In this document: positions 34,627 through 63,774 of the stretch, piece by piece
Layout of the letters: every line of letters starts with the position of its first letter
Numbering within the stretch: position 1 is the stretch's first letter
NCBI RefSeq assembly: GCF_000003815.2
Contig: NC_049991.1
Span: 16,372,971-16,436,970, forward strand
DNA from: Branchiostoma floridae
Taxonomy: Eukaryota; Chordata; Leptocardii; Amphioxiformes; Branchiostomatidae
DNA length: 64,000 bases
Direction of reading: 5' to 3'
Translations under genes and position numbers: made by a program
The notes under the pieces: model-generated
What the model saw: only the letters and a program-made list of their open reading frames with translations
What the model was told of the DNA's origin: nothing
Databases searched by the model: none

Positions 34627-35954
34627 GTGAGATTTACACGTGTTTTTACTACTGTTGGATTACTTTGAACGGTTTAGAGCCATGTTTATCTTCACAACAC
34701 GATGTTGCCCGTATTTCGTTAGATTTTCCTTTATTTGCTCAGTACAGGGGAATATTAAGGAACGCCTTTATGTTTGTCCTGCGGGAGGGTTAGCTGTAAA
34801 GGTCAGTGGGAGATAAATCTTGTTCACGGCCCTGCAGAGTACTTGTAGTGACGTTTCCTGTCCGACCGGAAACCGGCCAACTTCAGGAACGCGCCCTTCG
34901 TTCTAGTAGCTTCCCGTAGCCTTGGGCAAAATTCGTCGAAAGTTTCTGGCCCAGCTTCTCCCGTTTTGGAAGCACATTTTCATTATTTTGTATCAACCCC
35001 GTGTGGACGGTCTTCGAATCCCCTGTCAGTCTATCGGTCTTTAACCTAAAAATGTCCTTGTCGTCTTTCACCGTGGAATATATCAATTGTCCGTCAGGGT
35101 ATCAGCTGGTAGGTTGCGGTGTATTTGGCCGGTTTCCAGACAGCTAACCTATAGACCCGCGGCCCAGCACAAAAGCCTGGACTTCCCCTTCAGCGGGGCG
35201 GAACAAATAAAACATTACGACACAGGCGCGGTTTGATACTCAGTCTTACTGATACTTCTGGTGTAACCTTGGCTTTGGCGTCCCCTCAAAGTAATGTTAA
35301 AATCACAAACATAAGGTTAACACCGCTGAGACAAAGACCTCGCTGACACATTTGACGAACAGACAAACCTCGGCTCACATTTCACATGGTGTAGGAATAC
35401 CCCCGGCTCTGTAGTGGAAGGGATCCTACAAACAGATCAGGTAGAGTTGTATACAAGAGACCACTCCACGGCGCTGACCTCTGACCTCTCATTGGTGGGT
35501 CAGAAGTGCCTCCCGAGGCAAGGGGGACTCGAACTGGCACTAGTACTAGTGGAAGGTCCCGGGAAGTTGTTTCAGTGACTCAACCTACGAGCTCACAGCG
35601 GTCGTAGCGGTTTAGGGTTCGAACCCCAATTGGGACCTGACCGTGACGGAAGGTCGTGGTCATTAGCGGTGTATCCACTTTCCATCAACAGACGTAAAAC
35701 AACCGGATTCCCTACACTCAGCTCAGAACGTTCGCGAGGATTCCCGTTAGAGCGAAGCCAGCCATTTCTCCGGGCTGGTGCCAGACGCGGGTTTAGTGGC
35801 AGGGACTGGCGGACGTATATCCACACCTTGGGATTTTCCTTATCTGACAGCCGGGGTTCAGGAGATCCCACCACACGGGGAGGTTTAAAGTTCAGCCGTG
35901 TAATCTGCAGGGACGGGAAGGAGGAATAATGTGGCCTTTCTCTCCCCTTGATAG
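34627..35954. other. Upstream region / possible 5' UTR intron of galaxin-like gene
   Basis: No coding exon was seen. A GGGTTCGAACCCC motif at 35615-35627 resembles a tRNA B box and may mark a decayed tRNA-derived element. Overlapping open frames on both strands at 35,593-35,929 are shadows of GC-rich sequence. The region ends in an acceptor (CTCTCCCCTTGATAG, to 35954) 10 nt before the start codon, so at least one non-coding exon lies upstream. Confidence 0.4.
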
Positions 35955-35964
35955 GTCCAAGAAG

Positions 35965-36034
35965 ATGCTGCTACTGGTATCGGGACTCTTCCTGGTATTG
36001 TGGAGAAACGTCGAGGCCGCAGCCGCCGATTCAG
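35965..36034 (+). CDS. Galaxin-like gene exon 1: signal peptide
   Basis: 23 codons: MLLLVSGLFLVLW followed by RNVEAAAADS, a short hydrophobic core and an Ala-rich cleavage region, with predicted cleavage after ..VEA or AAA. Ends in phase 1 (TCAG|GTAGGT). The start codon was chosen because it is the first ATG after the acceptor and gives a clean secretory signal. Confidence 0.85.
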
Positions 36035-39000
36035 GTAGGTCCTTGTGATTTGGTGCCTTCGGGGCCCTTTGTGCCGTGTAGTGATTTTAGCCAACAAATC
36101 GTAGCGTTTATGTCTCGGGGCTAGCTCGCCAAGGAAAATTGTTCCTAGGGCGTCGCGGGGTAGCGGGCTTCTGGAGTTGATTTACTTCGATAGCACAAGT
36201 ACCAAGTTATTTGCCATTCCATCTTGGGAGGGCATATTTACATACGTACGAAGAGGCCGGTAGCACAAATACCGGTATGGCACAATGTAGTTCTTGCATG
36301 GTGGGAAAGATACATTGCAATCGCCAGGCAATTAGAACTATAACTTTGTGCAGACATGCATGCCGCCACAGCTAGCGTCGGGGCTGCCCCTTTTCTATTC
36401 TTGAACAGGTGATGCGAAATCAATCAAGGAAATAACCCTTTGTTAGGTACAATTGTTCCGTAGTCTGTGCCTGCAACAGACTTTGGACCCTTCCCATTAC
36501 CGTGAAGTTGGGTTATGTCCTTGATCTAACTAGTTATGGTCCCTTCTTTCCCCACACCCTAACCTGTTCACTTGTGTGTGTCAGCGCCCGTAACATGTGT
36601 CCCCTCAGGGGCAAGCCGACGTGAACCCGGCCACTCCAAGGTCTGGCGGAGTCACAGCCTTAAACGATCTAAACCAAATATGTGTGGTACTTAGGAAAAG
36701 CTGAGGTGCATGTGTGCAGTGTGTATACCCGTGACGTTCCCCCTACTCTGCCCTCCCCACAGCCTTGGATCAGTTTTCAAAAACAGCTGGCAGCGGTCTG
36801 AGCGTGGTGCTAGGTCGGCACCTGTACAAATACCACTCCGGAGTGGCCGCGGAAGAGTGTGCGAGACGGTGCGTGCAGGAGGAAGACTTTGTCTGCCGGT
36901 CCTTCGATATCAATAAAGTTGGGTGCTACGTCATAGCGGAAAACTGGCCGAGTGCGCCCGAGGACAAGTACAAATGCACGTCCCCGGAGTGCGGATGGGA
37001 CCACTACGAGCGACTAGGTACGTGGCGGCAACGTCGTTTCCTGGCCTAGTGCTTCCTCGCGCCTGGCCACCCCTATCACACAGTTCACAGGTCCGTCATA
37101 ACACTGCAACTGTGGTGCCTGACGGTCTGTCGAACTTGTATATAGGGGTGGTCAGGGTGTTGTATGTGTGCTTGCCGGAGTTCGACGGTCTGACGTTCGG
37201 AACACCTTCCACTGCGCCTCACCGTGTGTCGAGACCAGTCCGTGCACTCTCTCAGTCTCTGCCATGCCTTTTCTCTTGCTGTGCTGCTGCATATGCTTTG
37301 CTTTTTATTTTCAGTCTTTTTTTTTTTCATTTCGAAGAGTCCGTGTGCGTGTCTTGTCCAGGACATACATGTAACGGTATTTCAAGGTCACCAACTAGTG
37401 CTCACTTAAGCTGCACACGAGCTCCGCACAAGAATATTTGGTCAAAATTGCCAACACAGCACTTTTTTTCTCATTGAATTAGTTAGTCTTCACTTTACAC
37501 TGCACAGATCTTCCACTGAAACTGATTCATGACTTTTACTTTTAGGCAGAAAACGTCTCGTTTCAGGTTTGTACATTTACCCGTCATGTTGTGCAGTGCA
37601 AAAGGACGGTGTAAACCTGGAAACACTAGTAAAGGGCTTGGGCCATGGGGGAGGGGGATAGGCTAAGGTTGAGACCCGGGACATGTTCGTAGCGTTAGTG
37701 AACAGGCCCTTACCACAGTTCTGGGCGCGAATGTCAGCCTCCACACACCCATTACTTTCACACAGGGGGCAGAGTCGACATTGATTATTTTCACAGACTT
37801 CGAATTCATCCCCAAGGGCAGGTCCAATTATGGGAGAAGTCAGCTCGGAAATCTGTTCGCGGTTTCCGTTTTCACACCAAGAATGTGAGCAGACACAGAC
37901 AGGTTTAAAACGTGATCTGTGGAGTGTGGGTCGGCAGTTTTTTGGTCCCCAGGTTAACCACCATGTTTTCTCTCCATAATCGCCCAGACGTCTTGTTTTC
38001 GCCCTTGTAAGTCGGATTAGAGCCATTGTGGTCTGCCCGGCTGGTCTAAAAACAAGCCACGCTCTGCTTTCTTTATGTACAGTAGGCGTTATGGTTCGGT
38101 CGTCGAGGATCCCCTTATGTGCTCAAGAACGCTATTTCTGGGGCTGAGAAAGGAGGCGTAACTCTAGCACGGGATGGGGGACTTACAGAAAAGATCCTAT
38201 CTCTTTGACATGTCACTTAGGGCAGGTCTGAGGCGCTGCGTGTTTGTGTTTCTACCTGTCATCACATTTAGGGCAGGGTCGCCACAGGTATGTCCTGCCA
38301 AATAACACGTATTCTGCGGAGCCTGTCACATACATTCCGTCATATCATTCGCAAACGAGGTGACATTCCTACTAAAATGACCTCCAAAACAGAACAGTCT
38401 CCAATTATCAACCATGGTGCAGTCGATTTTTAAACTATTTCGATTCGATTTCACGTCTGCTTCTAGTACTGTTCATTCTCGATTTCTTCCCTCTTTACAG
38501 TCAACCCTCCTTAACTTGTGGCAAAATGCCTCGTGCGGCCCTCTGATCATCCCCGCAAGTCTAGTCTCCTCTAACCGCAGAAACCTCAGCCCCCATCCCT
38601 GGCAAATGTGCAGTACTAAACGAGATTAGGCTAAAGCTCTTTAGTAGGGACGGTAGCGGCCAAGAGTGCGTGCAGAGCGTCCCAGTCGGCTTAGGCCCAG
38701 CGTCACACTGGGGACGGTCCGAAATGCCAATAGAACTCGTGGCGTTTGTTCTGTGACAGGACAAGACAGAGTGGGATCTCCGGGGAGACCACCAAAGATG
38801 GCCTGGGTTGCTGATGTTACGCATAGCAGGGCGTGCGATAAATGAGACCCGCCGACAAAAAAAGTTTGACCCGCGGTTCGTCCACACAACAGTACTCCGT
38901 CAGCTGGACTTTCGTGAAGTATATTTTCTCGCCAAATTCGATACGTAAGCTGGTCAAACAATTTACACAACTGTTTCAAAATCTTCAGTAGTGAGATTAG

Positions 39001-42000
39001 TACTTGCCTGTGCACTGCACACTACACAATGTATAGAAATAAACGACGTCCCTCTCACGCCCTTTCTTTAGACAGTGTTTGTCTAGTCATGGAATGTCAG
39101 CATTTATGAGATTATCATACACGAGATACCAAATTCAAAGTAATCCTAAGATAACGTTAGAGTGAAAAATGTGTCCAAACATTTTGCAGACAGATAAAAG
39201 ATTTTGTAGTAGACTGCCGGATACAAATGCTTCATAGAAAAGTAAAACAAAAAACAAAAGATACAGATGAAATTAATTCATCTTCCTGGTGTCAAGGGTA
39301 CCCTGTCGCTATTTGTCGTATTCTCCAAGCAGAGGTTGAGTCGCGGAGATACAGTAGTAGTCGGGAGTTTTAACGCCTCCCTCCTCTCACTACCAGGAGC
39401 GAGTCGGAAAAAATCCCGACTACTGTACTACTAAATCTCCGCGGCTCAACCTCTGCTTGGAGAATATTTTGTCGTGCATGCTGCCGGGCGTTCCCTATGG
39501 GGACTCTAATGATGAAGAAACCAGTTGAGCCAAGGTCGGGGCGCGCGCTGATGGGTGCTCATGAGGCACTGACCTCGTTACTGCCGATGATTTAGAGTTA
39601 GAGTTTGAAAAAGCACGGAGGTACTTCCTAAATGGCTGTGCAACGAACTAGTTTGACGCAATGTCTCTTTCGAACTGGATTTTGCGGACACTGTTTTAGA
39701 ATTCATAACTGTTTGTCAAAGTAGGATGGTAATTAGATAAAACTAGAGCTATTCAACAATTCGATAGGTATTTCCTCTTAACATCAGGGGTTGCTGTCTT
39801 GAGCCTTGTCATGGTTCCAGGGACTTACTCATAATTTTGCAAAACTGATGACGTCTGCCCGGCAGACCCAGATCTACAGCTGAGAGCGAAGGTCGCATCT
39901 GTTCGGTGGTAGTGCCTTTATAGAGGTAAACCCCAGGAAGAATGTCTTGCCCCAGTTACCTTGGCTGACCCGATGTCGACACGGAAGCTTCCAGAGCAAA
40001 CCAATGGGACATGAGCCAAGCAAAACCTGCACAGAAGATTGTAAACATTTGAGCTATTTCCAACACACCACCCTGGCGGTTTCTAGAATCCCCTTCCCTT
40101 CCTCTAGAGGCCACTCGAAACCGAAGTTTCGAGAACATCCAAGAAGGACAACGGACTTCCCTTCTCTCGGTTTCGTTCAAAAGTGGCCTCTGTGGAACGA
40201 TCGAGAAGATATATGATAAAACACATGGTGCTGCCCTGGAGCAGTGTGTGAAATGTTGGGGTTGAATGATCAAGTGTGCCCAAAGCACCTCGCTTGTTCT
40301 CGTGCGGGTGAGAAGAATGTACTGTGTAACGAGCAGACACATGTCACTGACACTAGTTTAGAAGCCTACATACACACGAGTAACTGGCCGGGGGTTCTAA
40401 GATTACATTTGCTATAGTACTTTCATTCAAAGCTACATGTAGAATTTGGCCGACCTTGCAACTGCGGGGGATGTTTGGATTTATTACATGATCAGGATTG
40501 GTTTTGATTGTTTAGACGTACATCGATTGCGCTTTTCCTGTTTCTTGATGTCTGTAAGAGATGAAACAAAACAGACACTCTTTGTGTCTCCTCCGTCGTG
40601 GTTTGCTTATTTTGAGCATCCTGTCCCTGTCACGCACAACAGACGTCTTGTAAGATGTTTATGATAATCGTACTTGATAACAAGGTGATAGCGATACATC
40701 ACGATATGTTCGTCTTGATTTCCAGGCCTAAAACCGACGGAGAAGAACGAGGTGTGTTTTACGAAGGAGGGGAAGATCGCCTACAACCCCGACACGCAGA
40801 CCTGCTGTATCGATGGCGTCAAGGAAGGCGCCGAAAACAAGCACATATGCAAGACGTGCGGCTCGACAATGTTCGCCATGCCGAAGGACGGTCCCACCTG
40901 GAGGTGCTGTGGATCAAAACGCGACGTTCCGTACAATCCCGAATCCCATCACTGCTGCTTCGGCAATGTTCGGGAGGGACCCGAAGAGGAAACGGCCTGC
41001 TTCCGATGCGGAAAGAACGTCGTGTCCATCCCGGAGAAGGAGGCTGACGACTGGATGTGTTGCGGGAAGAAAAACAAGCCTTACAACACCAAGAAAGAAC
41101 ACTGCTGCTTCGGCGAGGTAAAAGAAGGGTCGGACGAGAAATTTGCGTGCCAGAAGTGCGGGAAAAAAGTTTTCAGCAAGCCCCGGTCGGACCCGTCCTG
41201 GAGATGTTGCGGGAAGAAGAACGACATGCCGTACAACCCCGACACTCACCACTGCTGTTTCCACGAGGTGAAGGAAGGGTCCCAGAAAGAGCACATGTGC
41301 CAGAGGTGTGGAGACAATGTCTTCAGCAAGATGATCTCCGAGCCGTCATACAAGTGCTGTGGACCTCAGATGGAGCCTTACAACCCTAACAGTCACCACT
41401 GCTGTTTTAACGAGGTAAGCCTGTTGTACGAGTCTGTTTTGGCTTTTAATGCATCTTTTACAAATACATAGCCTCTTCATTTAACTAGGATTTATGGCGA
41501 CAAATATGTTATTATCATAACCCTTTAAAGCCGGTCTTTCACCGGTATATCTTCCTTATATAGTTTAATGTTTATTCAATGAAGGCAGCAAGCAGAGAAG
41601 CTCCTGAAACCGAAAAAAAAGGCTTTGTACCTATGGACAGCTATTCAGAAGTGAAACAATTTTGCCCTATAAATACATGTTTCATTGTTTCCTAAGGTTC
41701 GGAAAGGCTCTGAGAAGAAGAACGTGTGTCAGCGGTGCGGCGCGAACGTGTTCAGCCGCCCGTCCTCCGACCAGTCCTGGTGGTGCTGCGGCAACAAGGA
41801 CCTGCCCTACAACCCCACCTCTCACACCTGCTGCGGCGGGGACGTGCTGAAGGGACCAGACGACGACAACGTGTGTCAGAAATGCGGCGACGTGTCCTTC
41901 CTGCGGCCCAAAACCGACCCACGCTGGCACTGCTGCGGCGACGACAACACCCCCTACAACCCGAAAACGCACTACTGCTGTTTCGGGCAGCTGAAGGACG

Positions 42001-45000
42001 GGGCGGAGTCGCAGTACACGTGCCTGCGGTGCGACAAGAAGGTGTCCACGGTGCCCGCGAACGGCCCCGTGTGGGGATGCTGTGCAGACCTGGCCTACAA
42101 CACGGAGAAGCAGGTGTGCTGCAAGGACGAGGTCTTCCAGGGGACCAAGTGTAACGCGCCGGGTGTCAAGCCTGCATCTGGTGAGTTGTCATTCATCTCA
42201 GTCAGAATCTGGTTACCTGTGTGAATGGTAACCTTTCGTTTGAAATTGAATTCTCAAATTTCAGAGGAAGTAAACGTCGTGATATTTACGTATAGGAAAA
42301 CTAGACATTCGGGTAAACAATATTCAATATTCCAGGTAAACTATGTTCTGCCAGTTCATTCTAGTGACGCTGAAGAAGAGTGATGGATGTCACTCGAAAC
42401 GTCCGGAAGTACATTTTATCCTGTAGAGATTGAATTGTATTTGAAGAGTTGACATTTAAACCTTTCCAATTAATATTCTTTGAAATGATATTTAAATGAT
42501 CTTTAAACATTCAAGAGATTCGAAACTGTGTATGTTGGCTGATCACCCATCAATGACATCATCATGTGAACACCTACGCTTTTGGCCTTCCTTCACCCTA
42601 ACGTATACTGCCTAGTTCCTTCAGATAAGCAACATAAGTGTAAGTAACATGAACTCTCACTGATTCAACAACACATATAAGACAGGCCCATCAATCTGGC
42701 TACGAAACAGATATGTTCTCAGCCGTCTGTCTGGCAGACCTCACGACACAAGTCACTTCGAGTTGGATCGACAGTCACTTGTCCATTTACTGTGGGTTGT
42801 CTGTCACCTCACTGTGACATCGACTGGCCTTTTCCAGTCCTTATCTCAGCTTTGATTTAATCGGTTAGAGTGGGGCGGAGACCCTGGCCTCGACCCTGCT
42901 GCCCCCTTTCCAATCAAAGAACATTTACAGTTTACCATTCATTTCATACTAAATGGGTTCTAATAAGGCGGGTGAAGCTCCATTTCCGTTGGGAACCTTT
43001 GCGCTGTTAGCTTCTTGTGTCAGACTAACGACTGGTAACGTGTTTTCTGCCCATCTCTTTTCTTGTCCTTGGTAAAGTGTGTTTTCCAATCTTCACTTCG
43101 TCCAGTTCGGACATAAGTCACCACAGGAAGGCCGTTTACTCAGTATTGTGTTGCCATTGTTCTGAGATCTTCTAACTGAAAACGTTTGGCGTCAATGGAT
43201 GCTACAAACATGACATTATCACTTCCAAATCTTCAAACGTTTGACAAGTGAGGTCAATCCATTAACCCTCCTGTCTTTTGGTCTTGTAGCCGTGATGAGA
43301 TGTGTTCAAAGATACAGTCCCTTGTCACAGCACGACCGTTAAGATTATTCCAGTTTCACGACATTGATAGGTGCACTGCGGAGGTCAGTCCACTCCGCTC
43401 GGACCAGCCTGTTCTCCATCCCATCACTAAGATAAGTAAACCGGCTTTAGTACAAATAAATAAATGTGAGCTTTGCTAGGAAAATGTAAACCAACGCGGA
43501 AAAATGTTTGCGGTGACAACACGGAGGTCAACACAAAGCCAGGAGAAATGTTGCAGGGAATGCCTCCAGCTCCCAGCTTGTTTAATTAGGGGACAAGGGA
43601 CACGTAGACCAGCTTTGGGAAAGTGGAATATTTAGGATTTTTTGCCCTGGGTAACGATCCGTTTCCTAGCTGTATTCAACACGGAGAGAACAACTCAATA
43701 CTGATTGTTTACATTATTAGTGGTAATGAGTAGTTTTGTCAGCACAAAAATCTGCTCCGGTCATGAAAAATGCTGTGTGTGGTTCCTTCCCAAATGAACT
43801 CATTAAGAGCATTAATCACTTCTAAATCGGCCATTTTTGGCCACAGGGAGGCTGTCAGTGTTAGCACAGTACATGTCAGTACATGTTATAAAGATGGTAC
43901 GACCCAAAGCTGTGTGCAAGTCGGTCTCCTACTTGCAATGAATCCATTGACCTATATGTAACGCATTATGGTTCAGTCTCAGATTGAAAAGACTGTTAAA
44001 GCCAGTGTGTGTATCTATTAATAAGAAGCTCAATAGGCAGGTCGCTTTCTTTGAGGTAAATGAAGGAGGAGCTAAGGATGGCATAAAATTAATGCAGCAA
44101 AGATATAGATTTCATGATTGAAATTTTTAAAAGCAGTACAATTCAACTCGTTGTGATTCATTCCAGTAGTTACTAGTATCTCTTATATGTCTCCCCAATA
44201 GACAATTAATGACTGTTCCCTCCAGCCGTCGATGATGATACACAGCAAAAAACAACAAGATTTTGTTTTCAAAACACACCTGGAAATTCGTCCTACCACC
44301 CACGATGGCAGACTTCGAAAACTAGAGCCGGTGGTATTCTTTCTAATAAACTGTTTTTCCTTGCCCAGGCGTCTAAAGGATAGCGATGGAGACCAAAGGG
44401 ACTCTCTGTACATAGTACACGTCTGGACAGGCTTATTGGAGTTTCTGATCTAAACTATAGCTACCACAACATTCATGCTATCCTTTTAACTTGATATGAA
44501 CAGACCTACAAGTATAAGCCTAGCATGGGATCCCCTCCCCCCTTTATCTGCCGAGTCTATTTGATCCTCTCAAATATTACGAAGAAGCCGAAAGAGACTC
44601 GGCAGCTATATCAGGAATACATATGCTAGGCTAATACAGGTTGGCTTCTGGCAGCAAAACTCACTTAGTCGTAGGCATACGATTCAGTAAGAACGTGAGC
44701 ATCTGTATCTTCGTTCACGTACGTATCGTATGTTGGGCTACAGCTAAGAAGAAAACCGAAAAATGACAACATTTAGAATAACCGCCCCCCCGCCTCCCCA
44801 ACAGTGTCGTACCAGACCCCCTCTCCCCATTAGAAACCTCTGATTGCTGCCCTCCCTTTTGTCCTGCAGTGGGCCAGCTGGGCTGCTTCAGATGCCCTCC
44901 CTGCCCTCTTCAGTCCTGAAGCTGAACAAACATACCGTTGTCTCTCTGTCCCCATCCATTCACAAACACGAGAATCTGCTGACCTCCATGTCGCACAATC

Positions 45001-48000
45001 GGCCATTGTGCCTGCTGTTTCTGTATTTATGCTATCTTCTAACAACTTCGCGGTCGTCTTTCCACTCTGTCAGTATCTGGGTCAAGTGTCATTGTCGATC
45101 CACCCCATATCTCAGTGGCAGGGGAAGAAAGTATGGCCTTGTACATCGCCAGTGTTTTCCGCCGTCTTTCCATGAATCTTGACTTGATTGAATATTTGGC
45201 CGGGATACAAGAAGCCACGTTTGAACCGTAGAAATCACAGGTCGCCATCTTAGGACTATCCCAAACATTTAATGACACGAGTTGGATAACTATAATAAGT
45301 ACATGCTTCGGCCATCTGGGGAACATGATTTATTTTCTTATCAGACCCGGCTTATTTACATTCTTTTATAGTTGAGATAAGAGTCCCTGAGACTGGCATA
45401 CACGCAGCAATTACCGACGTTGTAGCACAAATCAGTGGTGTTCACCTCACGCGGGCCTTGTGCAATATATCATCTCAAGAGTAAAACTGTAAAAGGGTGC
45501 GGAATGGACACGTTGGTGTGTAAGAGAGGGGTACTTATGAATGCATTTTGAGAAATGACTTAAGATACAAGACTCATTATTTCTAATTTTCTTGAATACT
45601 GGATGTGCTTCTTTTTGATATTTTCCTTCTTAATTTTATTAGTTTTCCCTTGATCTAAATTCAAGTCCATCAAGCTAGACAGTGACTCCGCTAATTTGAT
45701 AATAGGTGTTCCGCGATGACGTCAAAAGTTATAGAGGCCGCCATATTGGTGGGGTCGGTGGATCCAATATGGCGACTGGTCATTCGAGGTACCCATGATT
45801 CTCAGGAAAATGTTACTGTACACGTCGGTACATGCAGTTTGAATCACGGCACGTTACGTTCAGGGAAATAATCTGTCTATAACATATTTGACGTTAATGA
45901 CGTTAACAAGATGACGGACATTGACAATTCGCAATGATTCTAAACACTGTGATTATTTGCATTCCAATGTACGTAGCTATATGTTTCGGGATTTTATCAT
46001 TGGATGGTTGGCTGATTTTTTAACTAGGTTTGAAGTTTCTAGTTAGGTAAATTCGTTTCGTTGGTTAGTTTGACTACGTGATATCTCTATTGAGTCATCG
46101 TTTGATCTATTGACTGATTGATTGACCGATAGATTGATCGATTGTTTAAATTATTGGTTGGTTGGTCGATCGATCGATCAATTGATTGATTGATTGATTA
46201 ATTAATTAATTGGTTGATCTATACACCCATTTCTTCCTGCAGACTTGGCCGAGCAGACGAAACAAGGCGAGGACCCAGGGGCGTACAACTCGAATCCCGA
46301 GGGCTCCGAGGCGCCGAAGGAGCCGGCCTTCAAACCCGAGGGCGAGGAGGCCGGGACGGGCGGCTGCAGCGTCAACACGGGCGGGCGGCAGACAGCCACG
46401 CAGATCTGCTGTGGAAACAGGTCAGGCACCGCCCTTCTCTCACCACCCATTGTACCGCACACTTCCCACAGGATACTGTTGAATAAACGACACTAAACAG
46501 AACAGGACAGGATCACGAAGTGGCCCAGAAAACAGGTCTTGATTTATAAGGACACCCACGTTCTTGTAGCAAAGGCCTAAAAATGATTTCTTTCAACCCA
46601 TCTTTGCTTCACTGTGTGAAAGCTGCATCAAAGCATTCTATTTATATATTGATCTTTAGGGTAGTCCCTTCAGTTAACGTAGTAACTGATTTCCAAGGGA
46701 GCCCTATATACATGTTCGCACATGTTCGTACAACGACGGGTTATACCGCCCCTTACGGGGTGACACACCCGTCCGGGTGAATGATGTAGATCACCATGTG
46801 GCTGATACGAGACAGAGGTCGCCAGGCCTCCATCCGGGTGATTTGAAGTGAATCACCAACTTCCGACAGAAGGATTTGCACCAACGCACACCGCACCATC
46901 GCACGTGTGGGGGTTCTTTAACGTGCATGGGGTATGGCTCTCCCCATACACGGGACCTCCATTTAACGTCCTATCCGAGGGACGACTCATTTTCACTTGA
47001 GTAAAGTGAGGAAAGTCGTGTAAAGTGCCTTTCCCAAGGGCACAAGACCGGCAACACGGCAGGCGGATTCGAACCGGCGACCTCTCGATCACGGGCCGAA
47101 TACACTACCACTGTGCTACGCGGCCCCATTGGTGACTTGAATGAGGGTTCTGGTTATTACCTTCGTCAAGAAGGTTATGTTTTATGGTACTTGTGTCTGT
47201 CCTTGTGTGTGTGTAGGTGGACAGCATAACTTGTCGTGCATGGGCCTTCATGGTATTTAGTATGTTGTTAGAGGCTGGCAGGATGAAGAAACTATTAGAG
47301 CCCCTGGCGGCTTTCCATGGCGGTGCAACAGGGCTTCCGTTTTTTTTATATCTGGACACGCTATGGTCATGATTTTCGGATTGGTAATAGCTCTTAGATA
47401 GATAGATAGATAGATAGATAGATGGTGTTTATTGGGAAATCGCAGTGTCAGAGCTCTTGTTCTATCGCAATGAAATCTCACAGTTTACCTGACTACTCTT
47501 TCCTGGGAAAACGCCTGTTGTTACAGAACACCGAGCCCAGCTTAGGTTTGATACGCGCTGATAAGTGAAGTTAGTGAACCCAGGAAATTCCTTTCCAACG
47601 TTTATTTTTAGAAGCAAAGAACATGAGTACATAGAAACAACAATCGGGATAATGAATATTGAGACTGGGCACTGACACGTGACACTTTAGCCGTCATAAG
47701 TTCTAGCATTTAAGACGAAGAACGTTTTAGATTGATGAAATGTTATACCAAGATACTGTTGTTGAAATTGTCCCTCAGGAAATTAATTCCCCGTTTTCGT
47801 AGCTAAAGACATTGAGTTATTACACTTGCATACCGCAAAACAGGTCAGCTTTACTTTCACAATTTGTATAGGTTGTATGATTAGTATCTTGTAACAGGAG
47901 TCCGCCTATCAAAACCCTAACGATATGCTGTTTCTATCGTCGTACTATAAAAGGGGTGGCTTCATGATCACGGTTTTCGCGGTGACCTCTTGGCACCATG

Positions 48001-51000: not shown

Positions 51001-54000
51001 CGGTGGAAACTCTGTATACGAATATTCGAACCGGCAGTGAAGGTTGGTTCTAACTTTATGTTTGGTTTTTAGACTGAAAATCTAAGAATATTTGAGCATG
51101 CAGTGAAGGCAATCAAGTTTTAATCGGATTTGAACGGTCTCGAACAGAGCCCCTCTATGTCTGACCGCCTTGGACAGGAAACCGCATGGTATACACCCAT
51201 GTTAGAACCGGAAGCGAGATTTGCTATTTTAGCATGGAATATCCATTTATCATCCCTGGCATCAACTGGTTGCACAGAACAGAAGAGAAGCGATACCAAT
51301 CCGGCTCTGCCGACCCTAGGATGTAGTGAGAAACAAAAGGAATGTGTACGCCCAGGAGGTGTCTTTTGGCGGGAGGCCTATAGATGATGAAATGTTCTAT
51401 TTTGCAAACATTGTCCTCGCTGCAGGCCACCGTGCTTTCTCAACAGATTAGTTTACCGCTGACGGTGCTAAACGATGTCTAGACTCTATTCAAAATGGTC
51501 CCAAAGCCTCACATTATGTCCGAAGGTCAGCCCGGCCGGAAACCGTTGCGGTGGTGGTCTTCTGAGGACTCCTGACATGAACGGGATAAAAGCGGTCTGA
51601 GCTGAGACTAGAAACTCTGAACCTGTCTAATCACTTGAGAGGACACGTACCGTTCGGAAGGATGGAAGTTGACATTTCGTCCTTCAATTAAGACATTGAG
51701 AGTTAATTGCGCGTTAATGACAAAGTGTATGGCGCACGCTGTAGACATAACATCGTACAACAGATGCAGGTGCTTGTACAAAACATGTTAAGGTTCGGTG
51801 GATGTAAACACATATATATCTGGTTCAATGGTAGGAATTTCCAACTGCTATTATTAAGTGAGTGGTCAAAGAGCATGAAAGGAAGGGCAACTAATAATTG
51901 TGCACATGTAAATGGAAGAGGGTGGCGAAATGGTAAACCTAGACACCTCTGTTCTCTCTGATAGGCCCGGGTTCTGTATAGACCTGATGCAAAATCGGCT
52001 CAAATATGTTGTGGTCTGTTCCTATACTGTATACAGACAAGACAACAGTTTATTGTCCTTTACACTCCCAATCTCATATTAGAAATACGGTATTGCAACC
52101 TTATTACATCTTTAATTTTACAACTACTCTACGTCGATGAAGGCTTGACATCCAGGCTAGATAATGATGCAATACAAAAGTGGCTCAAGCAACTTGATAT
52201 ATTGTCAGGTGTTTCAGACAACCGTTGATCTGGAATCTGAAGTTCAACAGGTGTTTAACGAAAATAATCATGTGAACTGATACTTGGAGAAAACAAAGGG
52301 CTCGAATGGTGCGTAAATGTACTAAAATCCGCACCTCCGTCTGCGTGATATTCCTACCAGGACGTTTACAGACTATGGTCTAGAACTAGAACTGACATTA
52401 TTTCTGGTCTCCATGTAGACGGGGTGTTTAAGCCTGTCAGTATGAAAGCAGTTCAAGTTATCTCGAGTAAGATAAAATTCTTATGAAGAACAGATGTCGG
52501 ATACAGCACAGAGTCTAAACTTGGACAGCTTTTAACCGCCAAGGTCAAGGTCGTCATGTCCAAAGGTCTAGCGTGGGGATAGAGTTGACGACCTTAATCA
52601 CAAGTGACACTAAATACTTTGCTGAAGTTGGTTCGAGCACCACTGAAAAGGCTTAAGTTATCGTTAGTGTGGAATCTGCCAAATCGTAAATCACTGTCGG
52701 ACGTTCCAACATCCTTTGCTCGTAAACCAAACATATCAAGCGTTCTAGTTGTACCGTGTATCACGTAGCCGACTGTAACACCATCCAAACATTATCTTAC
52801 AACAGTTCAAGACCTTTCCATCACTGTTGGTGCATTTGAGCTCCCCCTCCCCACTCACGAACTAACTATCGCCAATGGCTGGTATCAATTTAGCAAAGAC
52901 TGTTGGGTTTGCTTTTAAAAGAAACATGACTATAACAGCTTCTCTGTTCCTTGCCTCTTTGACACATGCTGAGAACAGGTTCTTACTGAGAAACAAAATC
53001 AAACCGCATTCGTCAGTCCATTTTTGCCGTGCATACCGGACATGTTTTAGTATATCGCGAGGAAGAGCTATGGCTGTCTGGTTAGGGTTTCTTTCCTTTG
53101 CTGCCATTCTGGCGTTGTCTCAAGCGGTCCTGTTGCCGCCGCATGTTAGGTTGTTGCCGTTACTGTTAGACCCATGTCAGCGGATGTATCTACTAGGCCG
53201 ACACAGTGACGCGGTGGCCTGTCTACTGCGGTAAATCTGATCACCTTGCTACGTCCGCCTGTCCAGGCCTGGAGAACATTTTGCGTCACCGAGGGTTTCT
53301 AAGGGCAACCCATTTTGTTCGGAATTTTGACATCGCGTTAACTGGCACCATTTCTACGATTAATCAGATTGTTGTAATGAAATTTGCTACAAATTGAGAC
53401 TCTTGCACTGAGACTGTCTCTCCAACCTATCATAGAATGGTCTACTGCAGTCTCCAATGCACGATGATGCTCGCCCTTGCACGATATTGAAAGTACCATT
53501 GATTCTAACCGACTGTCTTTCATATTACAGGTTCTATCCCGGGAATGTGGCCATTAACGTGTGCAGGACGTGTGGAGCGCACTTCTTTGTGGACACGTTG
53601 CTGGAGAAGCCGAAGAGATGCTGCGGAGAAGCTCCGATGAACCCGGACACCCAGGTCTGCTGCAGGGGCAAGGTCGTAGACGGGAAGTCATGTGATGGTA
53701 AGATTGTGATCTTCTCCTCTTCTTAATCATTCATGACCTGGTAAAAAGCTTGTACTCAGTGTGCATGTGCATATGTCCAATGGTTATACGGAGTTAGAAT
53801 ACAGTATTGAGAAATCCAAACAACAAGTGTATGGTTTTCAAGTAGATACTGTAACTAAAACATATTTGTGAACACCATTATATTCCTGGACCAATACAAA
53901 GTAAACAAAGAGGCTAAATACTCCTAGCCAAATCGCTTATTATCGTCTAACTTTTATTCGGGAAACAACTTTTTGTTGCAGTTGTGAGAGGTTGTGAATT

Positions 54001-57000: not shown

Positions 57001-60000
57001 GTGATTTTCAAGTATTTGGGAACCATGTAGTATCAGCGGAAATGTAGCGCTAAGTATCGCTTGGAAGAAAACGACTGAGTGAAAGTTGGCAGATACTGGA
57101 TATACGACTGGCAATGGGTGCAGCACTAAGTAGAGAACAAACGTAGACATCGCATGTGTATTTGTATTTGGTGGATTGACTTGACTACAGCTGCATGATA
57201 TGAATTGAGGCAGCAGAAGATGAACTTCAACATTTGCCCATCTCTGTTGAGTAAACTGACTGTAGAAGTTCATGTGATTGCCCGAAGTATTGTCACCCAA
57301 TAAAGCATGTATCTTACAGAAGATGTCATTATGCTAGGCCGCTGAACCACAGAAACCTTTGAATCTGTGCCAGTGACAGGGCATACTGAGTGTACCATTC
57401 GTTGTAAATCCCCCCAATGTCTCCAATCAGGTCACTGTTTGCTATCTCAGTGCCATTCAAGTTTTTAGAAAGTCTATCCAGAAAAGAAACAAAAACGTGT
57501 GTCGACCTTTCTCTTTGATCTTCCAACGTTACAGGTACAATGGACGAATGCTGTTCTGTCTTTACCACAGTCTAGGACGAATTCAAACTTGTAGTGTTCA
57601 AGTTTTCTCACATTTCTGTCAGTGCTCTTTACCAGAGTCTGGGACAAATTTGTAGGATCTTGTAGTTTTCCAGTTTTCTCACATTTCTGTCAGTGGTCTT
57701 TACTAGAGTCTAGGACAAACTTGCAGTATTACAGTGTGCTCACATTTCTGTCAGTAGTTTTACCAGAGTCTAGGACAAACTTGCAGTGTTCAAATGTTAC
57801 CACATTTCTATCAGTGCACGTGGTAAGTAACATCTTCTCTCTTCTCAGGTTCACTGCCGGACCTGGGTGCACAGTCCTCCGATCCGGCCATAGACACAGC
57901 TCTGCTGCCCAGTCTGACCGGAGACAGCTCGCAGCAACAGGTCGGTGTGACAACCTCTGACAAACCTCACATTGTTGAGTCTAGCCCTATCGACTGAGAG
58001 GAAGGGTTCTTCAACAGGCGTATATCTCGTTACGGTTGTTTTGTCTCTGTGTACTGTCGAGAGCACGTCTGAATATGAACATGACCTTTTGATGCAACTG
58101 ACCGCTGATGGCTTTGATCAACATTTTAAACTTCTTTTACAAGAAACTAGAGTGAATCGTCTGAGTGAAAAAGTAAACTCCTTGTGTTAGTTTTAATCTC
58201 CTCTGTTTAAGAAGTGGCTGTATGTCCTGTAATAAAAATGTAACGGTAAATATCCCGACCTTGTCACCACAATGGCCTTGAAGCATACTCTTGCTATTCT
58301 TTTTCGAAACAGGTCTGCAATGTCCGTGGCATCGGTCTGCAGAACTACGACCCCAAAAGGGAGACGTGCTGTGGAGACAAACTGTTTGATGGCGCCGAAG
58401 ACGATATTTATTGCCGAAGGTGAGATGCCTGATTTATTATTATAGAGCAAGCCACTTCGTCTTCTTCTTCTTCGAGATTTCATACAAGCTTGACGAAATT
58501 TCAGTTCATGACGAAACACTTGGTTCTCATCTTGTACAACCATCGTTTGTTCTGTGACCTCTGGTAGCCAGATGTAGAGAACATGACTAACGGTTGTGAC
58601 GTGTGTTGTCCAGATGTCGTGACGTGTCGTTCGTGGAGCCGAAGAGCGGGACGGCGCGCCGTTGCTGTGGCAACACGCCCTTCAACCCAGAGTCCAACGC
58701 GTGCTGCGGGGCGGAGGTGTTCAACCCTCTGACGCAGGTGTGCTGCGATAACAGGGTGTATCCTGGGAAAACCTGTCCGGGCTTTGGTAAGTCTGGGGGA
58801 GGCGTCGCAACGTATAGGGCAAGGGGTCGGGTGGTACGACAGCCAAATAATAATGGTATAAAGGAGCCTGAAAAGGACAGTGTGTACATAAGGTGGTTAC
58901 ACAGAATCTTTTTTTGTACAAACAGTTATCTTTTATTAGCTAATGTCGTTTTGGATATAAATTCCTTGACTTCCATAAAGACTTAAGTGTAAGCCATTCA
59001 TTTTGCATAGTTTCTTGGCAAGTGGTTGTTGCGATGCGATGGATACAACCTGTCAGGTAGAGTCATGTTGTAAGATATGGCGTGATCATGAGCGCCTCCT
59101 AGCGCTGTAAAGTGTACTGGCAGCATTCCAACTGACATCGACCTGTTGTTCTGTTGCCCAGCTGCTGCAGTTGGCCGTCTGGACACGGCAAGCTTCCAGA
59201 ACCAGCCACTTGCCAACCGTCTGGGCGGTACGAAGGCTCAAGTGGGGATGTGCAAGGTCAACAACATTAACGTGGCGTTCGACGAGAATAGGCAGCTGTG
59301 CTGTGAGAACCAACTGTTCGATGGAGCCACCAGACGCACACATAACTGCAGGTTAGTTCAGTGGGCCTTTTACAGAGGGGAAACCACCGAGAGACCATGA
59401 AGGGCCAAAGATTGACAGACCTGGCGGTCTTGTGATGATCTTTCAATGATTGTAGATGCCTTTCGATGGTCTTTATGATCTTTCCAAGATGTTTCGACGA
59501 TCTCCAGTGATTCTCCAAAGATCTTTCGACCAAGATCCAATGTTGTCCAAAGGTTTTTCGACTACAGTATCTCCAATGTTTTCCAAAAGTCTTCCAATGG
59601 TCTTTCAATGCTTTCCAATGTCTTTCAATGACTGTTCAATGCTGACGCGGATAACTCCGCCATGTAGAGATGAGTTTTAAACAAGTTGTTGGCACAGGTG
59701 GTACTGTTGTTCCCAGTACTGTTTGTTTCACGCAAACCTTCGCGATCGACAACCATAACAGAACCACATCCTGTATCAAGTAAGAGTCGCCTTGTTGATA
59801 CAAATTAGGTTCTCCATATACAACATACACAACGAAAAGCTAACAGCTGTGTGCCCAATGCAGCATTTGCCAAGTTCGGAACACCGTGAAAAGAATGCGT
59901 TGTGCTCTAATTTACAACCTGGCAAAGTCTCAACACTTTTGGGCTTTGAATAAAGAGACTCTTTTTACACAACCGTTGGTTTATTTTTACCGACGTTTCG

Positions 60001-63000
60001 GTGACCGTCTGTCACCTTCTTCAGGGCAATTCTGACGGGTTCACATTAACGTCGCCACATTATCAAACGTCGGTAAGAATAAACCAATGGTTGTGTGAAA
60101 AGAGTCTCTTTGTTTAGAGACTTACCAACCTGATGAAACTATTCACGGACCTCTGTGTTTTTCTAGGACATGCGGCGGGATCCCATTCGTGGAGATCATT
60201 AATGCGTGATACAAATAAGGTTCGCCATATACAACGTACACAACATACACAATAGTTCGGAAGACCGTGACAAAGAATGTGTTGTGCTCTAATGTTCAAC
60301 CTGGCAAAGTCTCAACACTTCAAAATGTGTTTTCTCCAGGACATGTGGCGGGATCCCCTTCGTGGAGATCATTAACGCCGACCCCGCCCAGCGGTGCTGC
60401 GGAGCCGCGCCCTTTAACCCCGACACGCACACCTGCTGTGACGAGGACAGGGTGGTGCCGGGACAGGACTGCTACCAGGCTGGTGAGGATTCGTTTGTTG
60501 AGTAAAATAGAAGAAATGATAATCTTAAAAATTTGTACTGTCACTTAATATACTATCATTGTCAATCTATGTATTATATTACATACAGATACACATATAT
60601 GAGCACTGGTCACATGTGAACAATCGTATACAAATATGTAAGCACAGGTCACATGTTAACAATCGTATACATATACATACATACATATAAGCATTGGTCA
60701 TATGTTAAAAAACATATGCATAAACTTCTAAACAAAAGAATTGGCAGACAACGATAACCGACAAATGTTAGAACTACTAAATGCGTGTGTTGCACTGTCC
60801 ACTAGTTGATCAGCCGAACGTGGGAGTCCTCCAGCCACCAGGCGGCAGTGTGGGCGGTACCAAGGCGGAGGTAGGGATGTGTAAGGTCGGCAACATCAAC
60901 GTGGCGTATGACGAGAACAGACAACTGTGCTGTGAGAACCAGCTCTTCGATAACGCCAACCGCAGGACACATCAGTGCAGGTGGGTTTAAGATCTGCTGC
61001 CAATAGTAAACATAGTTTCTTAGGTATAGACCTTATTTCCCCTCTCTGCTTTCATCAGGGCAAAGGTATCTTAATCCTCGTCGTATTTGTATTGTGACTC
61101 AGTCCAGGTCGTGATAATCACATGACAATGCAACGAGGATTTAAGTCTCTTTACCCTGACGAAGACAACAGGGCGGCTTCCGAAACGTCGATACAGAAAG
61201 AAAAGGTTGTGAATCTAAGAAAACTATGTTGATTCAATTTAATAACCTGCAGAGCTATTTTCGGATGTTGTCAACCCTATTCAACGCAATTGGTTCAAAA
61301 CCATGTGACCGGAAAGGCGATGTAAACAATTAGGCTTTGTTAAGTTTTGCACTGACGAAATTGTAAGTAAGTGAGGGAGTTTTATAACATTTTGTGTTTA
61401 TGTGATGTCAATGTTGTTGAATGCATGCGTTGCGTCATTAATTCTCGACCAAGTCTTGACTGGTGGTCTGATCTTTTACGGATCAAAGTCAGAAATGCCA
61501 TAGACAGCACAAAAAGGGGGCAAGGAATTGTCCATATTTCATGTCGGTCTTGATCCATCGTTTCCAACAGAACATGTGCAGGAATCCCCTTCGTGGAGCC
61601 CATCGGGATAGACCCCCATAAGAGATGCTGCGGCGCGACCCCGTTCAGCCCCGCCACACAGACCTGCTGCGACGGAGGACAGGTCGTCTTCGGGCAGGAT
61701 TGCTTCGCAGGCTTGCGAGAAGGTATACTGTCACTTCGGGTACTTCGTAAGGATACCATGTTTTTTCATGTTATAGCCGATGATTACTGTTCAGCACCAA
61801 GGACAGGTATCCTACTAGTAGTAGGTAAATCATAAATCTTTATGATGCCCAAAGTTACTAGTTCTCAGAACATTTACACCGTAGCTTGTGGAATGACTTG
61901 ACTTATATATGTAGGCTGTTCAGCACCAAGGACAGACATGTACCGTAGGCAGATCTCGAAATACCTAACGTTCCTTTGTCTTGACTAAACAATGTGCTTC
62001 CCTTTCGCTACCAAAAATGAGGATTATGTGTAGTCCTACGGATGGTAGTTCAGCACTAAGGACAGGCCTTCATAGATAGTAACTGAGGGGATGCTAAAAA
62101 AGATGAAAAGTTCGTAATGTTTGCAAACTTTCACCGTTGCTCGTATAAAGAAGTTTCTGAGTTGTATTGAGTGTTGTGGATGGTTTTCTCGTAGAAGAAT
62201 GTTTCTGAGTGGTATTGAGTGTTGTGGATGGTTTTCTCGTAGAAGAATGTTTCTGAGTGGTATTGAGTGTTGTGGATGGTTTCCAACCACCAAAAAATAC
62301 CAAAAGTTTGATCGTGCAAACTTTCACCATGGCTCGTAGAAAAAACGTTTCTGAGTGATGTTGAGTGTCGTGGATGGTTTTCTCGTAGAAAAATGTTTCT
62401 GAGGGGTATTGACTGTTGTGGATGGTTTCCAGCCACCGGATCCGTGTATGTTGCTGACGTGAACCAGTTAGGAGGCACCAAGGCGAAGGTGGGCATGTGT
62501 AAGGTGGCGAACATCAATGTTGCCTACGACCCGAGGAGACAGATCTGCTGCGAGAACCGCATCTTCGACGGACCTGAAGAACAGACGGACTGCAGGTACG
62601 TGTCTCGTGAAGGCCTGACCAAAAACTTGCATTACTTATATGCTTAAGCAGCTACGGGCATATTTCTACGTTCTATCTATACAAATATTCAACGATACCT
62701 ATGTGCCAAGAGCCACTCATCGTATTTAATGATTGATTTTGCAATCTAGAGTTGGTATTACTGAACTATCTTTTATTGAAAGAAATACATGAATTAATAC
62801 AAATAAAGGCACAAAGACGAAGTGACGGTGGGCTTAAATTCATCATTTCAACATACTTAACTATTTGTCATGGATGAAACGTAATATATCTTAAGTTGAA
62901 ATGCTTTATGCATAACTACGACAGTCTTTTGACACCCCTGGTGCAGTAGCATTTCTATGTATTAACTCGGTCTTACCTATCTAGAACTTGTGGCGGGGAA

Positions 63001-63774
63001 CCGTTCGTGGAGCCGAGGGGAACAGACCCGGCCAGTCGCTGCTGCGGTATCCAGCAGTACCGTCCGAACGAACAGGTCTGCTGCCAGGGCCAGCTCCTGC
63101 CCTTCGGGACAGAGTGTTTCGGTGGCCTGTCGGGAGGTGGTAGCCAGTTCGGATTCGGTGAGTAGTTCCTTTGAATGCGAGTCAGTCTACTACTGATATA
63201 GAGGATAGAGGTCCACGACCATAAATAGTGCCACTTGTCAAAAGTCAATTTGCAGTGATGTGTTGATCCCTATCAATATACTGTTTATACTGTTACATTA
63301 GATTAGATTAGTTGTTAGATATTTGCAATAGTATATAGTTCAACTCCCATGTATATTCAGATTGCCATACATTGTACCTGTTACAATTGTCGCGCAATAA
63401 AGTTCTATTCTATATACTCCAAACCTCCCAAGTCTTTAATTATGTGAAATCTTTTCACTTTATCATTGCCTCCGAATCAAATATAATGGTGTAAGATATC
63501 TAAGTACATTAGGCCTGATCACTTATTTCAACACAATGTTGCAGTATCCGGTCAGGACCCCACCTCTATTAACACCGGAGTTGCCCAGCCGCCCTTCCTC
63601 CCGAGCGGCCCCAACTTTTTCCAGCCTGCGCGACCTGTCCAGCCCGACCACCCCCTCTTCGGGCAGTTCGGAGGGACCAAGGCTGACGTGGGGATGTGTC
63701 GGATCCAGCTGGGCGGAGGGAACGCTGTGAACATTCGCTACGATCCGACCAGACAAATCTGCTGTGAGAGTCAG
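35965..63774 (+). CDS. Secreted PAN/Apple + galaxin-like repeat protein (3' end outside window)
   Basis: 16 exons in the window give 1,147 aa and the gene continues: 35965-36034, 36763-37017, 40726-41414, 41697-42180, 46243-46420, 53531-53697, 57849-57940, 58313-58419, 58614-58786, 59162-59351, 60340-60482, 60806-60980, 61571-61722, 62433-62595, 62985-63157, 63545-63774. All phases agree. Order: signal peptide (1-21), PAN/Apple domain (25-108), seven ~50-residue CC-repeats (128-471), an acidic Pro-rich linker (~500-540), then galaxin-type modules to the edge. The signature is RCCG..P[YF]NP.[TS]..CC repeated throughout, as in galaxins, secreted matrix proteins first described from coral skeleton. 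The double cysteines are expected to form disulfides. A role as an extracellular matrix protein is inferred. The last exon ends in phase 0 at a GTACAT donor, so more coding exons must follow. Confidence 0.9.
36763..37017 (+). CDS. Galaxin-like gene exon 2: PAN/Apple domain
   Basis: The whole domain sits in one phase 1-1 exon, residues 24-109. Cysteines at 56, 60, 68, 78, 95 and 100 follow the PAN pattern C-x3-C-x7-C-x-SFD..-C (EECARRC, FVCRSFD, GCYV). PAN/Apple domains bind proteins or sugars in extracellular proteins; the ligand is unknown. Confidence 0.8.
37018..40725 (+). other. Intron 2 of galaxin-like gene (3.7 kb)
   Basis: Holds the inverted-repeat element at 39,320-39,466 and a minus-strand cysteine-rich open frame at 37,577-38,026, for which no family was recognised. 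Confidence 0.8.
39320..39466. mobile_element. Short inverted-repeat (MITE-like) element
   Basis: TATTCTCCAAGCAGAGGTTG at the left is mirrored by CAACCTCTGCTTGGAGAATA at the right, and complementarity continues for about 50 bp. TTTGTCG occurs directly outside both ends, a likely 7-8 bp target duplication. A related single end (CTCTCCAAGCAGAGGTTAGG) is at about 48,461. Confidence 0.8.
40726..41414 (+). CDS. Galaxin-like gene exon 3: CC-repeat array, units 1-4
   Basis: A 689-bp exon encodes four and a quarter head-to-tail units with no intron inside. Units begin at residues 128, 178, 228, 278 and 327. Each has the frame YNP..HCCF-x-EVKEG..-C-x2-CG-x-VFS..-W-x-CCG. Unit length is 50, 50, 50 and 49 residues. 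Lys and Glu are abundant between the cysteines. Confidence 0.92.
41697..42180 (+). CDS. Galaxin-like gene exon 4: CC-repeat array, units 5-8
   Basis: Continues unit 5 from the previous exon in phase 0 (FNE|VRKGSE), then units starting at 376, 425 and a shortened last unit at 472 that ends TKCNAPG. The acceptor is CCTAAG. Third positions are strongly G/C, unlike the flanking introns. Ends in phase 1. Confidence 0.92.
44517..44632. repeat. Small inverted-repeat element
   Basis: AGCCTAGCAT at the left and ATGCTAGGCT at the right, with a second complementary pair inside (TGCCGAGTCT and AGACTCGGCA). Confidence 0.65.
46083..46218. repeat. Degenerate tetranucleotide repeat (TGAT/CGAT/TTAA)
   Basis: Tandem GATT, CGAT and TTAA units ending about 25 bp before the acceptor of galaxin-like exon 5. 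Confidence 0.85.
46243..46420 (+). CDS. Galaxin-like gene exon 5: acidic linker and start of module 1
   Basis: Phase 1 to phase 2. The first two thirds are an acidic Pro/Gly-rich linker (GSEAPKEPAFKPEGEEAG), followed by GGCSVNTGG..QICCGNR, the first half of a galaxin module. The acceptor lies directly after a degenerate TGAT/TTAA microsatellite. Confidence 0.85.
46738..47127 (-). mobile_element. tRNA-derived SINE
   Basis: Read on the minus strand it begins with a tRNA-like head (TAGCACAGTGGTAGTG as A box, GGTTCGAATCC as B box about 35 nt later). A body containing GGGAAAGGCACTTTACACGA and CCTCACTTTACTC follows, and it ends in short GC-rich palindromes. The body resembles conserved-core SINEs of deuterostomes (Deu-type), but assignment from memory is uncertain. 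About 390 bp. Confidence 0.75.
47150..47395 (+). repeat. Dispersed repeat family 1 fragment
   Basis: Contains GTGTGTCTGT-like runs, GAGCCCCTGGCGGC and ACACGCTATGGTCATGATTT, matching the order of phrases in the copy at 1700-2785. Confidence 0.5.
47395..47423. repeat. (GATA)n microsatellite
   Basis: About seven tandem GATA units. Confidence 0.95.
47943..48246. mobile_element. TIR element related to the TACTGTAAATGCA MITEs
   Basis: Ends TACTATAAAAGGG and CCCTTTTATGGTA are inverted repeats. The interior has GGTTTTCGCGGTG and ATCATCGCGAACATTT, shared with the MITEs of the TTC30 introns, but the terminal sequences differ. Confidence 0.65.
50273..50301. repeat. (GATT)n microsatellite
   Basis: Seven tandem GATT units. 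Confidence 0.95.
53531..53697 (+). CDS. Galaxin-like gene exon 6: second half of module 1
   Basis: Phase 2 to phase 1. Reads VCRTCGAHFFVD..KRCCGEAPMNPDTQVCCRGKVVDGKSC, the galaxin core, after a 7.1-kb intron. Confidence 0.9.
53698..57848 (+). other. Intron 6 of galaxin-like gene (4.2 kb)
   Basis: Contains a diverged ~108-bp tandem duplication around 53,954-54,150 (TTCGGGAAACAACTTTTTG twice), an (AC)n tract at 54,587-54,606 and the minisatellite at 57,560-57,830. No coding signal was recognised. Confidence 0.8.
57560..57830. repeat. 60-71 bp minisatellite, four units
   Basis: The phrase CTCACATTTCTGTCAGT (or a variant) recurs at about 57,607, 57,678, 57,739 and 57,800, alternating with CCAGAGTCTAGGACAAA. 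It ends about 20 bp before the acceptor of galaxin-like exon 7. Confidence 0.85.
57849..58419 (+). CDS. Galaxin-like gene exons 7-8: first half of module 2
   Basis: Exons 57849-57940 (Ser/Asp/Gln linker, phase 1 to 0) and 58313-58419 (phase 0 to 2, VCNVRGIGLQNYD..ETCCGDKLFDG). The half that is one exon in modules 3-5 is here split by an extra phase-0 intron before VCNV. Confidence 0.85.
58614..58786 (+). CDS. Galaxin-like gene exon 9: second half of module 2
   Basis: Phase 2 to 1. Carries three double cysteines: RRCCGNTPFNPESNACC and PLTQVCCDNRVYPGKTC. Confidence 0.9.
59162..60482 (+). CDS. Galaxin-like gene exons 10-11: module 3
   Basis: Exons 59162-59351 (phase 1 to 2; GGTKAQVGMCKVNNINVAFD, QLCCENQLFDG) and 60340-60482 (phase 2 to 1; TCGGIPFVEI, QRCCGAAPFNPDTHTCC, GQDC). 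The ghost copy of exon 11 lies at 60167. Confidence 0.9.
59430..59642. repeat. Degenerate short tandem repeat (TCTTTCAATGGT-like)
   Basis: Roughly 12-20 bp units built on TCTTTCAATG, TCTCCAATG and TTTCCAA phrases fill this part of galaxin-like intron 10. Confidence 0.7.
59953..60111. mobile_element. Hairpin MITE with ~46-bp inverted repeats
   Basis: AAGAGACTCTTTTTACACAA.. (59953 on) and the right arm ..TTGTGTGAAAAGAGTCTCTT (to about 60111) are complementary over about 46 bp with few mismatches. The middle holds a GAAACGTC-type hairpin motif on the minus strand. It lies within a tandemly duplicated part of galaxin-like intron 10. Confidence 0.85.
60167..60209 (+). pseudogene. Ghost copy of galaxin-like exon 11 (partial tandem duplication)
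   Basis: TTTTTCTAG|GACATGCGGCGGGATCCC reads RTCGGIPFVEIINA and then stops (TGA at 60207). It matches the first 40 bases of the real exon at 60340. The flanking intron sequence is also duplicated: GATACAAAT[TA]AGGTTC..CATATACAAC at about 59,797 recurs at about 60,207. Confidence 0.88.
60560..60725. repeat. Short tandem repeat, three units
   Basis: GCACTGGTCACATGTGAACA-type units begin at about 60,603, 60,642 and 60,691, mixed with (CATA)n. Confidence 0.75.
60806..61722 (+). CDS. Galaxin-like gene exons 12-13: module 4
   Basis: Exons 60806-60980 (phase 1 to 2; GGTKAEVGMCKVGNINVAYD) and 61571-61722 (phase 2 to 1; TCAGIPFVEPIGID, KRCCGATPFSPATQTCC). Module 4 is the closest relative of module 3 in sequence. 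Confidence 0.9.
62123..62432. repeat. 48-bp minisatellite abutting a galaxin-like exon
   Basis: GTTTCTGAG starts a unit at 62153, 62201, 62249, 62347 and 62395 (spacing 48, 48, 98, 48). GCAAACTTTCACC[GA]TTGCTCGTA-like leaders precede the first unit (62123) and the fourth (62316), so a larger block was also duplicated. The last unit ends in TTTCCAG, the acceptor used at 62433. Confidence 0.9.
62433..63157 (+). CDS. Galaxin-like gene exons 14-15: module 5
   Basis: Exons 62433-62595 (phase 1 to 2; GGTKAKVGMCKVANINVAYD) and 62985-63157 (phase 2 to 1; TCGGEPFVEPRG, SRCCGIQQYRPNEQVCC). The acceptor of 62433 lies at the edge of a 48-bp minisatellite. Confidence 0.9.
63545..63774 (+). CDS. Galaxin-like gene exon 16: start of module 6
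   Basis: Phase 1 to 0. A Pro/Phe-rich linker (QPPFLPSGPNFFQPARPVQP) precedes GGTKADVGMCRIQLGGGNAV and QICCESQ. The rest of the module lies beyond the window. Confidence 0.88.

Follow-up and report, generated by a model that had tools for sequence, protein, structure and literature searches.

Galaxins first became known as proteins of the coral skeleton. A 64,000-nucleotide stretch of Branchiostoma floridae DNA (contig NC_049991.1, positions 16,372,971 to 16,436,970; hereafter the window) raises the question of whether galaxin-like repeats are joined there, within one gene, to a PAN/Apple domain, as an earlier note on this DNA had proposed, and what such a protein would do. We think it fairly probable that the window holds one animal gene for a secreted modular extracellular matrix protein, made up of a signal peptide, one PAN domain of the plasminogen/HGF type and a very long galaxin-related region. 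The computed features behind this reading are an uninterrupted reading frame, matches to protein families, the grammar of the repeats and a beta-strand fold predicted for two of them.

Gene model and the predicted PAN-repeat join

The gene model runs on the plus strand from 35929 or 35965 to 63774 and comprises 15 exons separated by GT-AG introns, with 1138 codons in a single frame, no stops and 108 cysteines. This continuous frame bears out the overall observation of the earlier note, and the limits given there fit the model as well: 35965 is the second in-frame ATG of exon 1 (the first is at 35929), and 63774 is the final base of the last exon inside the window, the 3' end of the gene lying outside it. 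The model was assembled from open frames and from GT-AG sites that had been selected by eye and with knowledge of the frame; that the phases agree is for this reason support, without the force of independent proof. The window is eukaryotic, as indicated by the introns that break up the gene and by an upstream open reading frame (ORF) that matches IFT70. The exons are as follows:

Exon 1: 35929..36034, plus strand; start codon at 35929 or 35965, signal-peptide-like hydrophobic stretch, strong donor; phase 0 to 1
Exon 2: 36763..37017, plus strand; PAN/Apple domain of the plasminogen/HGF type; phase 1 to 1
Exon 3: 40726..41414, plus strand; half repeat, then full repeats 1-4; phase 1 to 0
Exon 4: 41697..42180, plus strand; full repeats 5-7; phase 0 to 1
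Exon 5 (A1): 46243..46420, plus strand; acidic Gly/Pro/Glu-rich linker (isoelectric point, pI, 4.2), then A half-module; phase 1 to 2
Exon 6 (B1): 53531..53697, plus strand; half-module with C-x2-C, CC, CC; phase 2 to 1
Exon 7 (A2): 58284..58419, plus strand; left edge uncertain
Exon 8 (B2): 58614..58786, plus strand; one additional CC
Exon 9 (A3): 59162..59351, plus strand; linker, then A half-module
Exon 10 (B3): 60340..60482, plus strand
Exon 11 (A4): 60806..60980, plus strand; resembles exon 9 in its DNA
Exon 12 (B4): 61571..61722, plus strand
Exon 13 (A5): 62433..62595, plus strand
Exon 14 (B5): 62985..63157, plus strand
Exon 15 (A6): 63545..63774, plus strand; Pro/Gln/Gly linker of greater length; the only one of the six A exons to end in phase 0

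The least secure of these is exon 7. The AG that preserves the frame (start at 58284) lacks a good pyrimidine tract, and with a better-looking AG just before 58313 the frame would be kept only if there were one more small exon. The phase 0 end of A6 indicates that the gene proceeds differently past the edge of the window.

Exon 1 contains two in-frame ATGs, followed by a hydrophobic 12-mer with a mean hydropathy of 2.89, as found by a hydropathy scan and not by a signal-peptide predictor. From this signal-peptide-like start we infer that the protein would be secreted. Between 35000 and 36762, only exon 1, with its two start codons, was found to combine an ATG with a hydrophobic stretch and a phase-1 donor. 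The junction of such a start with a PAN domain, as claimed earlier, is supported in that exons 1 and 2 share one frame with the repeats.

Exon 2 matched PAN_1 (PF00024) at 23.1 bits alone and at 21.8 bits together with exon 1, a narrow pass of the Pfam cut-off of 21.4. Its best match in the PDB was plasminogen (E = 2.7e-4), with the four core cysteines aligned, in agreement with the PAN/Apple domain named in the earlier note. None of ten shuffles of the exon that kept the cysteines in place matched PAN_1. PAN domains are small binding modules that also occur in proteins of blood clotting. Weaker PDB matches were obtained for Est8 (E = 0.041) and HGF (E = 0.11); the Est8 match, which stood ahead of HGF, was taken as a chance match. 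Plasminogen and HGF carry kringles and a protease domain after their N-terminal PAN domain. The exon described here shares with them the aligned core and its four cysteines, has an extra C-x4-C beyond that core, and is followed by galaxin repeats in place of the kringles and the protease domain.

Two results temper this assignment. PAN_1 was not reported when the 615-residue N-terminal stretch was scanned whole, and one cysteine-keeping shuffle of the galaxin repeats gave an E-value of 6e-4 against an unrelated zinc finger, under the cut-off of that family, which calls for caution with E-values of about this size in cysteine-rich sequence, that of the PAN exon included. A model of the PAN exon made without an alignment was poor, with a predicted local distance difference test score (pLDDT) of 48.3, and leaves the PAN fold unconfirmed.

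The region could instead be split between two neighbouring genes, one for a small secreted protein with the PAN domain (exons 1 and 2, perhaps with unrecognised exons) and one that is galaxin-like and begins near 40.7 kb. Such a division would suit the 3.7-kb length of the intron between exons 2 and 3 and the moderate acceptor of exon 3, and the one-gene model was derived from genomic sequence. On splice scoring trained on small sets (13 donors and 12 acceptors, all from this gene), the acceptors of exons 2 and 3 stood at the 72nd and 93rd percentiles of all AGs in the window, and the donors of exons 1 and 2 both scored above the 99th percentile of all GTs. The strong donor of exon 2 is moreover in phase 1, the phase in which exon 3 can begin. 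Between exons 2 and 3 (37018-40726), a scan that required an ATG, hydrophobic residues and a usable phase-1 donor found no signal-peptide-like exon, and there was no second PAN or repeat unit, although kringle and protease exons were not searched for there by profile. We therefore regard two genes as improbable. The frame, the splice sites and the lack of another signal-peptide-like exon in the 3.7-kb intron support the prediction that the PAN domain and the galaxin repeats belong to one gene.

Galaxin-related repeats and the A/B exon array

The Galaxin_repeat family (PF24748, cut-off 28 bits) matched exons 3 and 4 at 83.5 bits and the modules from A2 to B5 at 68.6 bits, which identifies the repeats as galaxin-related, and it matched the 615-residue N-terminal stretch at 74.9 bits. 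A1 and B1 by themselves reached 25.3 bits, under the cut-off, and A6 alone had no Pfam match. The 1018-residue repeat part contains 32 di-cysteines (CC), compared with a mean of 10.1 and a maximum of 20 in 2000 shuffles. A likeness to galaxins confined to generic CC spacing had been named in the earlier note as an outcome that would speak against its reading. When exons 3 and 4 were shuffled with every cysteine fixed, none of the five shuffled sequences reached 28 bits (one scored 12.0 and four gave no Galaxin_repeat match), and because the match is lost in this way, the likeness extends beyond CC spacing.

Exons 3 and 4 encode seven full repeats, each with C-x2-C, CC and CC, and a half repeat ahead of them. 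Six of the seven are 49-50 residues long, and the last comes to 53 when counted up to where exon 4 ends; together with the preceding half repeat, this upholds the earlier count of at least seven 50-residue repeats. By eye, the half repeat at the start of exon 3 appears A-like, and its 59.8 bits to the A profile are no test, as it is one of the seven rows of that profile. The six galaxin modules counted earlier held up for five complete A/B exon pairs, the sixth being represented by an A exon (A6) only.

A model of two repeats (89 residues) reached a best pLDDT of 91.6, with ten strands and no helix. Its alignment had four rows, all of them repeats from this window, and the pLDDT of the five models spanned 91.6 to 43.8, with two of them at 75.2 and 43.8. 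Published predictions depict galaxins and calcarins as beta-hairpins joined via di-cysteines (PMC12419799), and the two repeats are likewise predicted to form beta strands. The RXRR protease motif, described as a mark of galaxins sensu stricto (PMC6824150), does not occur in the 1138 residues of the incomplete gene. On the part seen, the protein is hence galaxin-related and not a galaxin sensu stricto.

From exon 5 onwards, A exons (phase 1 to 2) alternate with B exons (phase 2 to 1), and the window contains six of the former and five of the latter. Since a pair opens with the phase-1 start of its A exon and its B exon follows in phase 2, each of the five A/B pairs is a phase 1-1 unit, and duplication of this exon pair offers the best explanation for the growth of the A/B part, as read from the sequence. 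The DNA of A3 (exon 9) and A4 (exon 11) is 78% identical over 157 nt and 84% identical over 98 nt. The beginning of exon 10 (B3) has a relic copy on the plus strand at 60158..60205, in the intron between exons 9 and 10, with 90% identity over 48 nt; the translation of the copy ends after INA, where a stop follows immediately. Pieces of intron near the relic are duplicated at 92-94% identity, among them a 67-bp piece (59873-59938 and 60254-60320) at 92.5%. The relic B start and the duplicated intron pieces indicate that the array has been both growing and decaying, and the phase 1-1 pair and the relic exon show how repeat rods may lengthen and decay.

The intron before exon 13 also contains a 48-bp tandem array (62140-62437, plus strand). 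The acceptor of exon 13 lies inside a copy of a related 97-nt direct repeat, and in an upstream copy the AG is replaced by AA.

Proposed role and its rivals

For the function of the protein we infer more than the computed features show. The protein would be secreted, and its di-cysteines would pair and staple successive beta-hairpins into a stiff, protease-resistant rod, formed first by the unbroken array of seven repeats and then by A/B beads on Gly/Pro-rich linkers. The PAN head would fasten the rod to a partner, protein or glycan, on an epithelial surface, and the rod laid down there would build or coat cuticle, mucus or apical matrix. Most likely the protein belongs to the class of secreted epithelial matrix proteins, and it is probably a component of cuticle, mucus or apical matrix and not of mineral.

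The main competing function is that of a mucosal defence factor, in which the galaxin repeats would act on bacteria and the PAN domain would bind microbial sugars. The galaxin repeats of the squid protein EsGal1 reportedly act on bacteria, and elsewhere PAN domains bind sugars or proteins. The analogy is offset by the size of the protein and the number of its repeats, which look structural; none of the tests made on the window gave a sign of immune use, nor could a binding site be demonstrated. We hold this function to be rather unlikely. Far slighter is the chance that the gene encodes a basement-membrane protein like usherin, the CC-rich stretch of which was mistaken for galaxin. Usherin is composed of Laminin N, EGF-Lam, laminin G and fibronectin III domains. 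It likewise has many CC motifs (PMC4878875), but laminin, EGF and fibronectin III domains were not reported in scans that jointly cover the model (the 3' end of the gene lying outside the window), and the N-terminus here carries a PAN domain instead.

A matrix protein of mineralisation, deposited in a calcified structure as coral galaxin is, would account for the Galaxin_repeat match, and galaxins and sponge calcarins do occur in skeletons (PMC12419799). Against it stand the missing RXRR motif, with its bearing on galaxins sensu stricto (PMC6824150), and the predicted pI of the mature part, which is 6.3 compared with about 4.5 for two coral galaxins (PMC2726143), although another paper terms these two neither acidic nor calcium binding despite this pI (PMC4878875). 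We consider such a role highly improbable.

The idea of a non-mineral role is not new. Galaxin-related proteins without a tie to a mineral skeleton have been published for Hydra, Nematostella, the body wall of Riftia, the epidermis of Ciona and a squid (PMC2726143, PMC2175520, PMC5216023), so that non-calcifying animals, tunicates included, were already represented. The first interpretation of this locus is borne out in part, namely for the signal-peptide-like start, the PAN domain, the single frame and the galaxin likeness beyond CC spacing. With other galaxin-related proteins (PF24748, PANTHER PTHR34490) the protein shares its signal-peptide-like start, tandem di-cysteine repeats, family score and predicted beta-strand repeats. 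It differs in the PAN head, in following two repeat grammars (repeats of 49-50 residues arrayed over two exons, and after them the A/B pairs) and in length, with more than 1138 residues compared with 338 in Amgalaxin (PMC2726143). The Ciona protein 'similar to galaxin' (ci0100148033) and the Riftia body-wall galaxin are galaxin-related and expressed in epidermis or body wall; the passages on them give no domain order and make no mention of a PAN domain (PMC2726143, PMC2175520).

Galaxin-like repeats are likewise joined to another region or domain in coral Amgalaxin-like 1 and 2, in sponge calcarin 16 and in large proteins of hexactinellid and homoscleromorph sponges, where the partner is an acidic region, a Reeler domain, or fibronectin III and laminin EGF domains, and not PAN as here (PMC2726143, PMC12419799). 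A PAN-galaxin fusion was not found in a literature search that left most subscription journals outside, and it may already be annotated elsewhere; collections of prokaryote and virus sequences yielded no confirmed relative. New here are the exon layout and the presence of a PAN head; other fusions, and galaxin-related proteins from animals that do not calcify, were known already. A long galaxin-repeat protein headed by a binding domain makes a pre-skeletal role of galaxins concretely testable. More speculatively, and in our view unlikely, the gene could represent an undescribed galaxin-related branch whose members carry a giant di-cysteine rod, directed by a PAN head of the plasminogen type to a glycan of host or microbe on the epithelial surface. 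Such a protein would form a barrier in soft-bodied animals, and from proteins of this kind the repeat-only skeletal galaxins could have arisen by loss of the head.

Other features of the window

An IFT70/TTC30 gene lies upstream on the plus strand (20946-23356), and part of its ORF at 22934-23356 matches solved IFT70 (E = 8e-30). The ORF at 20946-21281, for which Pfam gave no match, presumably belongs to the same gene. A dispersed repeat family with copies 71-83% identical was found near it, at 15645-15839, 20667-20928 and 21693-21880. In the intron between exons 5 and 6 of the galaxin-related gene, a transfer RNA-like match on the minus strand (47054-47125) scored 32.9 bits (cut-off 29) and was not called by ARAGORN; it is perhaps a short interspersed nuclear element. 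A 153-bp direct duplication joins 8509-8661 and 8789-8941 at 98% identity.
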